Source of the DNA: a virus
Length of the DNA stretch: 20,725 nucleotides
Direction: 5' to 3' (one strand)
Virus record (IMG/VR): IMGVR_UViG_3300030103_003176
Coordinates: 1-20,725 of that record
Shown here: in pieces, positions 3,851-12,293 of the stretch
How the letters are laid out: every line of letters begins with the position of its first letter
Numbering within the stretch: the stretch's first letter is position 1
Program-made: the position numbers and the translations under genes
The notes under the pieces: model-generated
What the model saw: only the letters and a program-made list of their open reading frames with translations
What the model was told of the DNA's origin: nothing
Database searches by the model: none

Positions 3851-4315
3851 TTACTCCTCATCTAGATCTATCACAGGTCTAGCAATCAACTCTTTAATCT
3901 CTTCATCTGAGTTCTGCAATTCCTTCATCAACTGAACCACTGATAACTGTCTATTATCTACATTCACCTCTACAACCGGAGCAGATTGTTTTTGATATTC
4001 CTTGTGTACTCTTTCGAGGAGCCAAGCGGCCGCAGTCCATTGCTTTTCCTCTTTGGCTGCCTTCTGAATCAAAGCAAGATTAGCAAGTGCATGATTAGAC
4101 CTTGCTTTTTTTACTCTCCTATTCAGATCTGCAAATATAGAATCCAGTTCATCATATCGATCCTGTTCTCCTCTTTGCATCCATGTATTATATGTTGATT
4201 GTGAGACTGAAGCATGGTGACATGCTAGTTTTTTAGACATGCCTAAACTGTATGCCTTTTCAAGCATTTGAATCACGATTTCATTCAATTTTGACGGTCT
4301 TCCAACTTTAGACAT
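3851..4315 (-). CDS. terS: Terminase small subunit (HTH DNA-binding, probable)
   Basis: Small terminases recognise the packaging start site and load the large subunit. This 154-residue protein opens with a phage small-terminase style N-terminus (MSKVGRPSKL), then a predicted helix-turn-helix at about residues 12-48 (LACHHASVSQSTYNTWMQRG), a central charged helical oligomerisation-like region, and an acidic tail. It sits between the methyltransferase and large terminase genes with only one small gene between, which fits. I chose ATG 4315 over the in-frame ATG at 4342 because GAGGTG lies six bases upstream of 4315 (4321-4326) and the 4342 start has no comparable site and would overlap the upstream gene by 35 nt. 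Overlap with that gene is then 8 nt. Alternative: a generic phage HTH protein. Confidence 0.75.
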   Translation of the reverse strand: MSKVGRPSKLNEIVIQMLEKAYSLGMSKKLACHHASVSQSTYNTWMQRGEQDRYDELDSIFADLNRRVKKARSNHALANLALIQKAAKEEKQWTAAAWLLERVHKEYQKQSAPVVEVNVDNRQLSVVQLMKELQNSDEEIKELIARPVIDLDEE

Positions 4316-6032
4316 TTGACACCTCAAAGATAACAGCCTCAACTTTTACTATATCATGACCTGTCGCATGTTTGATTCTCTGAAGAGCAATATCACAATA
4401 CTCTGGATTCATCTCTGTACCTATAAACTTAAAGCCTTCCATAGAAGCAGATACACCAGTAGTACCTGAGCCTAGAAATGTATCTAATACGATTCCTCCT
4501 TTTGGTGTGAGAAGACGACATAACCATGCCATCAGTTTTGTAGGTTTTACTGTAGGATGAAAGTTCTTTAATTCTCCTTGTGCCGTTCTTCCTGCTCTCG
4601 CATTCTTCAAACCTGCCGATCCTTCTTTTCTATTTGTTATCTGTGCTGAAGTTTTGCCTTTAAATTCATCAAGCCCTGTTTCACGTTCTGATCTTGAAGG
4701 TTTTGCACATTGATATATATTTGCAGGCCATCGACCTAGATCATTATATTGTGGTGGTTCTATCATTTCATGACCCTGATCTTTATGACTCTCAAAATGC
4801 CCTCTTTTATCTCTTATTCTACCATGTGGCATGGCAGGCTCTTGATTTCCTACCCAACAAGGATCACCATATCCAAATCTACAAGCATCTATATTAATTG
4901 CACCTGTTCCCCACTTCAAAACATTCTCTGATACATTCAACCCCTTCTCTATCGGCTTTCTGCAAAGGATTGCAGGCTCACAGGCGGGCTTCAATGCTGT
5001 TCCCCATCCTGACCAATATTGCGCTTCTTCTGTAGCTGGTTTTGTTATAAGTCCAATTTTATCAACATTTGATTTTTTTGGATTTAATTTGCCCATTTGA
5101 TTATTAGTTTCTTGAAATGAATGCTTGTATCTTCCATCTGTTCTTTTTCCTAGAACTTCTCTTTCAACTCCTTTCATCTTATCAATCTGCTTTGATATAT
5201 CCATACTCTTTGGAAAACCTGAGAAGTACAACCAGTTGATCATATCTCTAATCTCAAACCCTTCATCCTCCAAAGCACAAACCATTCTATGTATTGCTCT
5301 TGTAGCACCAAAAGCAACAATATGACCACCATGCTTTAATACTCTGAAGCATTCTTTAGCCCATTCTTCAGTTGGTACAGAATGATCCCAATCTTTATCC
5401 ATAAACCCGATACCATAAGGCGGATCGCAAACAATACTATCTATTGAGTTATCAGGAAAAGACCGCAATATTCCAACGCAATCACCACATAGAACATATT
5501 GATCCCCTACAGCATAGATTCCTCCTTCTTCTGCTATTTTCACGCGTTCTAGGTCTAGATTATCAGCATCTTCATAATCATCATAAACAGCATTATCAGA
5601 TTCAGGAGGTAGTTCTGTATCTATGTTTTCCAAAAGTGAATCAAGTTCATCTTGTGAGAATCCGATATCATCTAGATCATTTTCAGGAAGAGCAGACAGA
5701 ATATCTTTCAGCATATCCTCATTCCAATCTGATATCTCTCCAAGTTTATTATCTGCTATTGCTAAGAGTTCCGCTTCTGTTCTAGATAGTTTCATATATC
5801 GTACTGGAATTGTGGATAATCCGAGACTACGTGCAGCTGCAATCCTTGTGTGACCGGCAATAACCATAGAATCTTCTTCTCGTGCTATTACAGGAGAAGC
5901 AAACCCAAAACGCTCTATAGACCTTGCAACCTTAGAAACTGCTTCAGTGTTTATTCTCGGATTGTGTTCCCATTCAACAAGAGAATCAATATCTACATAT
6001 TCTCCTATACTCTCTTTTTTCTTCTTTGCCAT
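4308..6032 (-). CDS. ParB/sulfiredoxin-like domain fused to a site-specific DNA methyltransferase
   Basis: A 574-residue two-part protein. Residues ~10-140 are a ParB/Srx-type domain: 'DIDSLVEWEHNPRINTE', the loop IAGHTRIAAA (58-67) and 'AIADNKLGEISDW'. Residues ~165-555 are an S-adenosylmethionine-dependent DNA amino-methyltransferase with the catalytic DPPY motif (203-206) near its start and the AdoMet-binding motif DTFLGSGTT (517-525) near its end, preceded by HPTVKP. This motif order (IV before I) is the beta-class arrangement; the ~290 residues between would hold target recognition. Such fusions are common in phages and may modify phage DNA against host restriction; the target site cannot be read. 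GGGAG lies six bases before ATG 6032. A terminator (6047-6073) separates it from the early operon upstream; I see no clear promoter, so read-through may drive it. Confidence 0.9.
   Translation of the reverse strand: MAKKKKESIGEYVDIDSLVEWEHNPRINTEAVSKVARSIERFGFASPVIAREEDSMVIAGHTRIAAARSLGLSTIPVRYMKLSRTEAELLAIADNKLGEISDWNEDMLKDILSALPENDLDDIGFSQDELDSLLENIDTELPPESDNAVYDDYEDADNLDLERVKIAEEGGIYAVGDQYVLCGDCVGILRSFPDNSIDSIVCDPPYGIGFMDKDWDHSVPTEEWAKECFRVLKHGGHIVAFGATRAIHRMVCALEDEGFEIRDMINWLYFSGFPKSMDISKQIDKMKGVEREVLGKRTDGRYKHSFQETNNQMGKLNPKKSNVDKIGLITKPATEEAQYWSGWGTALKPACEPAILCRKPIEKGLNVSENVLKWGTGAINIDACRFGYGDPCWVGNQEPAMPHGRIRDKRGHFESHKDQGHEMIEPPQYNDLGRWPANIYQCAKPSRSERETGLDEFKGKTSAQITNRKEGSAGLKNARAGRTAQGELKNFHPTVKPTKLMAWLCRLLTPKGGIVLDTFLGSGTTGVSASMEGFKFIGTEMNPEYCDIALQRIKHATGHDIVKVEAVIFEVSNV
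4321..4326 (-). promoter_or_regulatory. Ribosome-binding site that decides the small terminase start
   Basis: GAGGTG on the minus strand, six bases before ATG 4315. It lies inside the end of the methyltransferase gene and argues against the longer in-frame start at 4342. Confidence 0.7.
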
Positions 6033-9070: not shown

Positions 9071-10072
9071 TTATTCTCCTATAGCTGTTTTTATCTTTTG
9101 AAGATTGAGATCATGACAATGTGGTGAGGTCTTCATATTTTCAATCATTGTTTTGTTAGATATAGATGGATATGATGTATATTGCTTTATGTTGTGATCA
9201 AGCAACCAATCAAAATCCTCTTGACCTTCATCTGTATTTATAACTTTCAAATCAGGTTCTTCTGGCTTTGGTTCCTGCTTCTTAAATTGCAGAATCTTCT
9301 CATGTACTTCCTCAACTAACATGGCTGTGTGTACATTGGGTTTTGATGATCTCCCTTTTCCATTCTTGATCCAATAAGAGATCCCTTTGACTATATAATT
9401 ACCGGTCCAAACTCTACCGCCTTCTTTCTTCATTCTTAGATTGTATGCACCGATCAGCATTAACTCATCAGTCAAATAATCAGAACAATCTGCAGGAAGA
9501 ACCTTCTCAAGTTCTTCAATGTAGTTCTTTCCTTTCCATCCAAAATAAAGAGAGAATTTATTGATCATTTCTTTTTGCTTATCGGTTAATATCAATCTGT
9601 TAATACTTTCTGTTAAATCTTTTTGTTCATTATTTTTGATATGTTTATACACAGTGTGTTTTTCACTAGTCTCTACAGTGTGGATTACACTAGTCTCTAC
9701 TGTATCATTTTCACTAGTCTCTACAGTGTAGACTTCTGAAGTAGATTCATTCTCTGAAGTCTCTACTGTGTAGACTTCTGTTTTGATTGTAAAAATAGCA
9801 GTTGTTCCAGCTCTTTGTTGTGACGTTAAAAAACCGTTCTCTTTGAGATTTGCAATTCCTTTTCCTACATAACCTCTTGAGCATCCTGTAAGATTCATCA
9901 AACGATCATACGAAGGAAAACACTTTCTTATTCTGTATTGCTTCCCTTCTTCTTCTTTGATTTGAAATTTAGTATGTAGGCATAATGTTAAAAATAAATG
10001 CTTACCACTTGAATTTAATGTTCTGATTTGATGTATTTCATCTTTGAATATCATTGTATATTGTTTACTCAT
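9071..10072 (-). CDS. Winged-helix replication initiator-like protein with repeat-encoded linker
   Basis: A 333-residue protein laid out like phage replication initiators of the lambda O / DnaD-related type. Residues ~20-98 form a winged helix-turn-helix (FPSYDRLMNLTGCSRGYVGKG, then NLKENGFL). Residues 99-142 are a linker built of repeats of YTVETSEN, encoded by the iteron-like cluster at 9647-9780. Residues ~158-240 hold a DnaD-like helical region (GNYIVKGISYWIKNG). A proline/glutamate linker and a short C-terminus follow, perhaps for loading a host or phage helicase. Initiators of this plan bind repeats inside their own gene, so the origin may be here. ATG 10072 has AAAGGA eight bases upstream and overlaps the previous gene by 8 nt. 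Family placement is by overall plan, so function is probable, not certain. Confidence 0.7.
   Translation of the reverse strand: MSKQYTMIFKDEIHQIRTLNSSGKHLFLTLCLHTKFQIKEEEGKQYRIRKCFPSYDRLMNLTGCSRGYVGKGIANLKENGFLTSQQRAGTTAIFTIKTEVYTVETSENESTSEVYTVETSENDTVETSVIHTVETSEKHTVYKHIKNNEQKDLTESINRLILTDKQKEMINKFSLYFGWKGKNYIEELEKVLPADCSDYLTDELMLIGAYNLRMKKEGGRVWTGNYIVKGISYWIKNGKGRSSKPNVHTAMLVEEVHEKILQFKKQEPKPEEPDLKVINTDEGQEDFDWLLDHNIKQYTSYPSISNKTMIENMKTSPHCHDLNLQKIKTAIGE
9664..9780. repeat. Iteron-like repeats inside the initiator gene (candidate replication origin)
   Basis: Four copies of AGTCTCTAC(A/T)GTGT with CTCTAC beginning at 9671, 9695, 9719 and 9761. The first three are exactly 24 bases apart and preceded by CACTAGT; the fourth is 42 bases on. 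Copies three and four both continue into GTAGACTTCTG. Copy three contains a perfect odd palindrome, TCTACA-G-TGTAGA (9720-9732). The repeats lie in the linker region of the gene, as iterons do in lambda O. Confidence 0.6.
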
Positions 10073-10439: not shown

Positions 10440-10736
10440 TTATGCTCTTTCTACTACTTGCTCGATATTAAAAACGAAGAATCTTCTGGGGACACTCTTT
10501 TTCTTTTCAGGATCATTCTTATCTGTAACTGATACGATTTTGATCAACTCGGTTCCTTTTGATCCCTTCATAACTTTGTAGCCTGCATCTTTCCACTGTT
10601 TAAATGTAGCCCATCTTTGATCTAGAAATGGACTGTCAAGAAGTCGTAAAATATTTCCTTCTGTGTACTCTCTGCCTGTTGTTGCGTTTGTAGGGAATGC
10701 TATAGGAAGTTGCATTTTTTCAGATATTTCTTTCAT
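10440..10736 (-). CDS. ArdC N-terminal-domain-like protein (candidate antirestriction or ssDNA-binding), first gene of early operon A
   Basis: A 98-residue protein matching the plan of the N-terminal domain of ArdC antirestriction proteins: FPTNATTGREYTEGN at 14-28 (cf. the 'N..TGK.Y.G.N' segment), then RWATFKQWKDAGYKVMKGSKG (41-61) and a final FFVFNIEQV (86-94, cf. 'vFNv.Q'). In ArdC this half binds single-stranded DNA and is followed by a metalloprotease-like domain; that domain is absent here, and the stop is followed closely by a terminator, so this is a stand-alone short form, not obviously a broken gene. It is the first gene after promoter A, with AAAGG upstream of the ATG. Early, strong expression fits protection of entering DNA. 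Recognition is by motif memory, not a search. Confidence 0.7.
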   Translation of the reverse strand: MKEISEKMQLPIAFPTNATTGREYTEGNILRLLDSPFLDQRWATFKQWKDAGYKVMKGSKGTELIKIVSVTDKNDPEKKKSVPRRFFVFNIEQVVERA

Positions 10737-10916: not shown

Positions 10917-12293
10917 TTATATACTAACAACTACTGAAACACCTGTCAAAGCATCAGAAGAAGTAATTGTAAGATTATCATTATCTGTAAGTGATACTTG
11001 AACATGGACTAAATCGTCATTACTGTCATAAACAGAAACATGCACAAGTTTTTCACCAAGATCATGATTGATAGTTTTTGCTACATTTGCTGTCAAAGAT
11101 TGATTTGTGAAGGTTGCTCTAAAAAATCCATTATCAACATTGATTTCGCCGTTTGTACTATTATATTGCAATCCACTTCCAGCAGGAGCAGAAATAGAAG
11201 CTCGTGCATTTGCATCAGTGTATTGTGTGATTGTAGATGAAAATTGACCAGTTCCCGAATTGTAATTAAGACCTACACCCGCTGACAATGCGGATCTAGC
11301 ATTAGAATCAGTGTATTGTGTGATTGTACTAGAAATTGCACCCGTTGAAGAGTTATAAGCAATACCCGCTCCCGCTGACAATGCGGATCTAGCATTAGAA
11401 TCAGTATATTGTGTAATGCTACAAGCAAATTGACCTGTTGAGGAGTTATAGGTTAATCCTGTTCCAGCACTCACAGCCGCTCTTGATCTTGCATCAGTGT
11501 AAAATAATTTGTTTGATCCCTCAACTAAATCATCAGTATCAAATTCTGTAAAGTCTAATGATAATTGACCTGATATGCTAATATCAATACCCTTTCCATA
11601 CGAAAAGGCGCCTCTTGCCAATGCATCAGTGTATTGTGTGATTGAACTAGTAATTACACCCGTTGAAGAGTTGTAAGATATTCCTGTACCTGCTGACAAA
11701 GCGGCTCTTGCATTTGCATCAGTGTATTGTGTAATGCTAGAAGAAATCTGACCTGTAGAATTATTGTAGGAAATACCAGCACCACCAGACAACGCAGCAC
11801 GAGCATTAGAATCAGTATATTGTGTGATTGTACTAGATATCTGTCCACCTGCAGAAATGTTAATTCCTGCACCTGCTGACAACTTTGCGACGATCTCAGC
11901 AGAAGTTAGGCCTGATTCGACCTCTGTATAATTCGAAGCATTTGATCCATCAGCACCTGATACGATATAGGTTTCCGCTCCACCTGTGGCAGCAGTCAAA
12001 ACTAAGAAGTCACCTTTTTTCAAATTTGCAGCTGTAGAAGATTCGTTTGAAATAAAGTTTGCTAGGGATGATTGTGAATTGTCAACGTGTACATCAGAAA
12101 TCAAAAGTGATGATACGGATAACTCACCACCGGAAACAGATAGATAGGATGATGATCCAGAAGCGATCGAGGAGATGAAAGAAAGACCAGATACATCTTG
12201 TTTACGGACTAGATCATTATTGTTGCTAGGAGCAGTGTCAGACTGTACTTGACCTTTGAAGACGTATGTAGGTGAATAGTTATTGAATGGCAT
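10917..12293 (-). CDS. Repeat-rich phage tail fibre-like protein
   Basis: A 458-residue fibre-type protein. The N-terminus (MPFNNYSPTYVFKGQV, then NNNDLVRKQDV) resembles attachment segments seen in phage fibres. Residues ~128-388 contain repeats ending in QYTDxNARxALS-GxGIxYNSSTGxI; the YTD of each is at residues 159, 190, 221, 265, 296, 327 and 358, giving a 31-residue period broken by one 44-residue step that holds an extra EFDTDDLVEGSNKLF segment. Residues ~392-458 are a beta domain (LVHVSVYDSNDDLVHVQV ... SSDALTGVSVVV) that resembles the C-terminus of the small protein encoded just upstream. Composition is rich in S, T, N, G and A with almost no cysteine, typical of fibres. Receptor contact is the likely role. 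AAGGA precedes ATG 12293; a strong terminator follows. Confidence 0.8.
   Translation of the reverse strand: MPFNNYSPTYVFKGQVQSDTAPSNNNDLVRKQDVSGLSFISSIASGSSSYLSVSGGELSVSSLLISDVHVDNSQSSLANFISNESSTAANLKKGDFLVLTAATGGAETYIVSGADGSNASNYTEVESGLTSAEIVAKLSAGAGINISAGGQISSTITQYTDSNARAALSGGAGISYNNSTGQISSSITQYTDANARAALSAGTGISYNSSTGVITSSITQYTDALARGAFSYGKGIDISISGQLSLDFTEFDTDDLVEGSNKLFYTDARSRAAVSAGTGLTYNSSTGQFACSITQYTDSNARSALSAGAGIAYNSSTGAISSTITQYTDSNARSALSAGVGLNYNSGTGQFSSTITQYTDANARASISAPAGSGLQYNSTNGEINVDNGFFRATFTNQSLTANVAKTINHDLGEKLVHVSVYDSNDDLVHVQVSLTDNDNLTITSSDALTGVSVVVSI
11130..11912 (-). repeat. 93-bp tandem coding repeats in the fibre gene
   Basis: Seven near-identical units of about 93 bases (31 codons), recognisable by the plus-strand core AATCAGTGTATTGTGTGAT and close variants; a degenerate eighth lies at the N-terminal side. 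Units near 11285 and 11378 are almost identical over long runs, so recombination between them could change repeat number. Confidence 0.9.

Follow-up and report, generated by a model that had tools for sequence, protein, structure and literature searches.

The replication initiator gene of an uncultivated phage raises the question of why the middle of its coding sequence is built from DNA repeats, and whether these repeats mark a replication origin inside the gene, as the original prediction had proposed. The window, i.e. the whole stretch of DNA analyzed here (20,725 bases), is the first part of a 30,004-base virus contig, with a run of N just past the window end. We consider it probable, at roughly 87%, that the locus is a lambda-type intragenic origin composed of iterons and an unwinding element, which would be bound by the winged helix that the gene encodes and to which the DnaD-like C-terminal domain of the same protein would bring a helicase. 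The proposal is supported by repeat arrays in homologues, by co-variation of the repeats with the winged helix, by a low level of synonymous change, by relatives with repeats in shifted frames and by a meltable flank. The gene and its coding regions are as follows (window positions):

9071-10072, minus strand: replication initiator gene, 333 amino acids, with an N-terminal winged helix, a disordered linker and a C-terminal helical domain
9776-10060, minus strand: region coding for the winged-helix DNA-binding domain, type A (residues ~5-99; HTH_36; AF2 secondary structure H-H-E-E-H-H-E)
9605-9772, minus strand: region coding for the disordered linker (residues 101-156; AF2 pLDDT ~25 over 101-150), with the candidate origin embedded in it
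9074-9595, minus strand: region coding for the C-terminal helical domain, type C1 (residues 160-333; AF2 model; C1/C2 mosaic)

The AlphaFold model of the initiator was used for the domain layout only, because its overall pTM was merely 0.34. The sole Pfam match of the window protein above the cut-off was HTH_36 (E=1e-7, residues 50-82), with no Pfam match for the C-terminal domain. Comparison with PHROGs indicated a DnaD-like helicase loader (E=1.8e-8) as well as several replication-initiation O-like families, phrog_186 spanning residues 3-293. HTH_36 was above the cut-off in 8 of 8 members of the family described below; the PHROG replication-initiator matches were phrog_186, 270, 391 and 678. 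Judged by these profiles, the initiator is a member of the broad HTH_36/PHROG O-like and DnaD-like group of phage initiators. Strict membership of the lambda O family was rejected: Phage_rep_O (PF04492) gave only a weak Pfam match, in 2 of 8 family members (best E=0.063), and profile comparison of the window family with lambda O by hhalign revealed no detectable direct homology (probability 0.2%, E=0.38). PHROGs 678, 391 and 345 are common to the window family and lambda O.

Close relatives of the window protein were found neither in 85,000 bacterial and archaeal genomes nor in 50,697 phage records, and when viral contigs were scanned for spaced pairs of iterons, of both types described below, only the window's own family and unrelated, mostly low-complexity proteins were returned. 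The PDB sequence search with the window protein gave nothing meaningful, and the PDB fold search gave only winged-helix transcription factors and weak matches to plasmid initiators, none below E=0.001; other helix-turn-helix and replisome-organizer proteins were retrieved from a viral fold library. A terminase search identified no host.

The repeats lie within the codons of the disordered linker. The 9-mer GTAGAGACT has exactly four exact copies in the window, all on the coding strand at 9668-9766 and spaced by 24, 24 and 42 bp. The CTCTAC cores reported earlier indeed start at 9671, 9695, 9719 and 9761, each inside GTAGAGACT on the minus (coding) strand. The palindrome TCTACA-G-TGTAGA, also pointed out earlier, is perfect at 9720-9732 and occurs as a single copy. 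The array is organized as follows:

9751-9774, minus strand: iteron 1 (24-bp unit), core GTAGAGACT at 9758-9766
9709-9732, minus strand: iteron 2, core at 9716-9724, holding the 13-bp palindrome TCTACAGTGTAGA at 9720-9732
9685-9708, minus strand: iteron 3, core at 9692-9700
9661-9684, minus strand: iteron 4, core at 9668-9676
9637-9660, minus strand: degenerate half copy ACACTGTGTATAAAC, one period beyond iteron 4, kept in all type A genes

A 24-bp array was independently called by TRF at 9651-9729 (score 109), and when codons were shuffled within the gene, the observed repeat score was reached in none of 300 shuffles (P=0.003).

The family of the window gene, with relatives taken from viral contigs, comprises six distinct genes including that of the window (L003 is identical to L004 in the gene, and L008 to L009 in the protein). 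Every distinct homologue carries a 24-bp array at this site, and none has the winged helix without the repeats. The winged helices fall into two types, with identity of 93% within A, 87-97% within B and 37-39% between them, and the C-terminal domains likewise into C1 and C2 (82-94% within, 57-63% between). All four combinations were found: A/C1 in the window and L002, A/C2 in L003 and L004, B/C1 in L005 and L007, and B/C2 in L008 and L009. The iterons accompanying winged helix A are GTAGAGACT, those accompanying B are mainly GGATCACATGTTAAGCC-like with some GGAACAACAGTAGAGCC, and the 24-bp period is kept in both, the A and B iteron sequences being unrelated. In four of four combinations, the iteron type follows the winged-helix type independently of the C-domain type. 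In the type B array of L007 (5288-5420), the GGATCACATGTTAAGCC and GGAACAACAGTAGAGCC versions are interleaved in one 24-bp register, and the GGAACAACAGTAGAGCC version there has ACAGTAGAG in common with type A iterons.

The DNA identity switches at codons ~145-165, between the iterons and the C domain, so that a winged helix is transferred along with its sites. This linkage supports recognition of the iterons by the winged helix without proving it, because adjacency alone could yield such linkage. Since the mosaic junctions lie beside the array, the conserved segment might serve mainly as a joint at which gene modules recombine, instead of as an origin. A joint would explain the shared A/T-rich segment described below, but not a repeated array with a different sequence in each type that matches the type of the winged helix, and it leaves the arrays of remote relatives unexplained; we find this reading hardly credible. 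The evidence for module swapping, in which a binding domain and its DNA sites are exchanged together, is the most useful part of the intragenic-origin reading, and the four naturally occurring pairings of a winged helix with a C domain provide ready-made proteins and sites for studying the co-evolution of initiators with their sites.

The window alone cannot separate constraint on the DNA from constraint on the peptide, because all its spacings are multiples of 3. The same holds for all spacings in the family, which yields peptide repeats (YTVETSEN, EGSHVKPT), and codon slippage could thus have expanded a low-complexity linker, the array being a feature of the peptide and the DNA repeats a by-product; tandem growth can also keep codons alike. 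When the peptide was fixed and synonymous codons were redrawn, however, a 9-mer repeated four times arose in only 0.7% of trials for the window and 0.3-0.6% for L003 and L002. Synonymous differences between the window and L003 (type A) affect 3 of 42 conserved codons in the linker versus 30 of 88 in the winged helix (P=5e-4), and between L005 and L008 (type B) 7 of 39 versus 32 of 83 (P=0.017). Within the iteron codons alone, the contrast gives P=0.014 for type A and P=0.08, i.e. not significant, for type B; recent exchange of the linker segment could partly explain the low synonymous change. The peptide spacers between the repeats vary although synonymous change is depressed, the less common codons GAG, ACT, CCC and ACC are reused in the repeats, and in type B arrays, units for SHVK and for TTVE, peptides of opposite charge, occur together in one 24-bp register. 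All these features argue against a peptide feature, as does the predicted disorder of the linker.

Further evidence on this point came from remote relatives. An initiator ORF of the Pseudanabaena phage Pam5 shows 35% identity over the winged helix and linker:

L077:2893-3696 (ON014757 34535-35338): Pam5 initiator ORF, 267 amino acids, unannotated in the public record

The annotated CDS Pam5_60 overlaps the 3' part of this ORF in another frame. The ORF contains three perfect 19-bp iterons (GGGGTCAGAATGTGACCCC, three copies) spaced by 43 and 23 bp, and the GGGGTCAGAATGTGACCCC repeats therefore sit in two reading frames. Dyad symmetry of the iteron unit is clear in Pam5, moderate in type B, and weak with an ambiguous centre in type A, where a clean dyad was looked for and not found. 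The weak symmetry in type A and the mixed array of L007 count against the intragenic-origin reading. The Pam5 ORF thus resembles the window family in its intragenic iterons, with a GTCA-N5-TGAC dyad common to its iterons and those of type B, but differs in the out-of-frame spacing and in its C-terminal domain.

The Pam5 ORF matches 235 phage records, from which 14 annotated relatives were taken for a survey. Significant direct repeats inside the gene, at nt 238-431, were present in 12 of these 14 (two Pseudomonas records among the 14 carry one identical array), and the spacing was out of frame in 7 of the 14. By comparison, among 40 control genes drawn from the window and from these loci, one showed a significant repeat, and lambda O, put through the repeat test as a positive control, was positive. 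Repeats in shifted frames likewise argue against a peptide feature, and we regard that explanation as very unlikely. As the original prediction had suspected, the constraint appears to lie on the DNA and not on the peptide, a view favoured by the homologues, the synonymous depression, the shifted frames and the disordered linker; comparison of the six distinct family members points the same way. Judging by this small survey, a search for repeats in the linker-coding stretch of winged-helix initiators can locate replication origins in many phages that are unannotated or mis-annotated.

Gordonia phage Spooky gp76 was considered as a relative and rejected, its 24-bp repeats encoding an unrelated long repeat. 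This gene (L079:1353-1664) has ~12 tandem 24-bp units with a SSHVxA-like peptide repeat and does not encode an initiator; L069, from another contig, has a repeat of similar kind, NSHVVA.

An A/T-rich flank of the array had also been pointed out, and it proved to be real and exceptionally meltable:

9560-9650, no strand assigned: candidate DNA unwinding element, 78% A+T, on the C-terminal-domain side of the array
9581-9627, minus strand: 13-14 bp tandem repeats TTAAC[A/C]GA.. within the A/T-rich segment (TRF)

In windows of 40-100 bp, the duplex stability of 9560-9650 ranks within the bottom 0.27-0.47% for the 30-kb contig, whereas the opposite flank of the iteron array has average stability. 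In the lambda control, the stability minimum was located on the same, C-terminal side of the iterons. The TTAAC motif occurs three times in the window, with spacing of 13 and 14, and five times in the type B relatives L005 and L007, with spacing of 12, 14, 13 and 14. Part of this conservation may be accounted for by the conserved NINRLIL peptide.

In several of the relatives, the iterons are immediately followed by another short array (GAACCAGTCACT and variants, at spacings of 12 or 17), possibly a repeat of the unwinding element comparable to the TTAAC 13-mers of the window. The GAACCAGTCACT-type array is identical in mEp460 and a Klebsiella phage despite their differing iterons. Arrays of this type were located at:

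L087:1174-1214
L085:1147-1187
L088:1020-1063
L086:1166-1196

Alternatively, the repeats might be initiator-binding sites used mainly to regulate the initiator gene, by autorepression or copy-number control, with the origin located elsewhere. Plasmid iterons do both jobs, and the sites here lie inside the gene of their presumed binder. This reading is nevertheless unlikely in our view, since the exceptionally unstable segment with its 13-14 bp repeats adjoins the array on one side, which is the layout of ori-lambda, and no comparable array next to an A/T-rich tract was conspicuous elsewhere in the contig. The GC skew of the whole contig is monotonic, follows gene direction and has no turning point; it is uninformative on the origin, since almost all genes lie on the same strand.

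In the preferred reading of an intragenic origin, the winged helix encoded by the gene would bind the four iterons, and the nucleoprotein complex so formed would strain and melt the A/T-rich segment just past them (9560-9650). The DnaD-like C-terminal domain would then recruit or load the replicative helicase, probably that of the host, because the contig proteins examined included no recognisable helicase. This most likely mechanism is modelled on lambda (PMC5043065, PMC7466680), and DNA binding by the protein, opening of the duplex, recruitment of the helicase and origin function are all inferred. The peptide would tolerate the sites because they lie in a stretch coding for a floppy linker, and their position in this stretch would also allow the binding domain and the sites to be inherited and recombined as one cassette.

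In ori-lambda, the iterons lie in the middle of the lambda O gene, between the N-terminal DNA-binding and the C-terminal partner domains (PMC5043065, PMC7466680). Both systems have four iterons at intervals of ~20-24 bp, placed centrally in the initiator gene, and an A/T-rich tract on the C-terminal side. However, the iteron sequences are unrelated, the spacing is 24, 24 and 42 (in frame) here versus 20, 24 and 23 in lambda, and no P-like loader gene was recognised beside the window initiator, which itself resembles DnaD-like loaders. The gp18 proteins of phages P22 and L are distant initiators whose genes each contain a different set of repeats (PMC8022706), and there protein and sites co-vary as in the window family. 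In the window family, both site types are combined with both C domains, and the exchange of winged helix plus sites against the C domain is therefore directly readable within one family. SPP1 oriL comprises direct repeats and an A/T-rich unwinding element inside the gene of the gp38 replisome organizer (PMC6316719). By this published description, SPP1 resembles the window in having both elements inside the initiator gene, but SPP1 additionally possesses another origin, oriR, as well as a loader and a helicase of its own, and neither feature was recognised here.

The locus is thus a well-supported new example, in an uncultivated phage, of an arrangement known from lambda, P22, L and SPP1, and it allows the origin of an uncultivated phage lineage to be placed to ~200 bp from sequence alone. 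What this example adds is the four-way set of natural chimeras, the frame-shifted relatives and a simple search rule. We tentatively extend this reading to a broader one, with the balance slightly against it: that iterons in linker codons are a general device of winged-helix phage initiators, and that the winged helix and its sites form one cassette, swapped against the helicase-recruiting C domain through a shared A/T-rich joint that is also the unwinding element. If this is true, one gene would let phages alter the specificity for the origin and the choice of helicase partner independently of each other.

Three further genes on the minus strand of the window deserve mention. Upstream of the initiator, a 98-amino-acid protein (10440-10736) consists entirely of an ArdC N-terminal domain (E=5e-16) and is possibly a single-stranded-DNA-binding replication accessory rather than an anti-restriction protein. 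At 4308-6032, adjoining the terminase genes, a ParB-like N-terminal domain is fused to a DNA methyltransferase. The long protein encoded at 10917-12293 contains a repeat of ~31 residues, YTDSNARAALSAGAGIxYNSSTGxISSTITQ, derived from 93-bp DNA repeats, and is probably a tail fibre.
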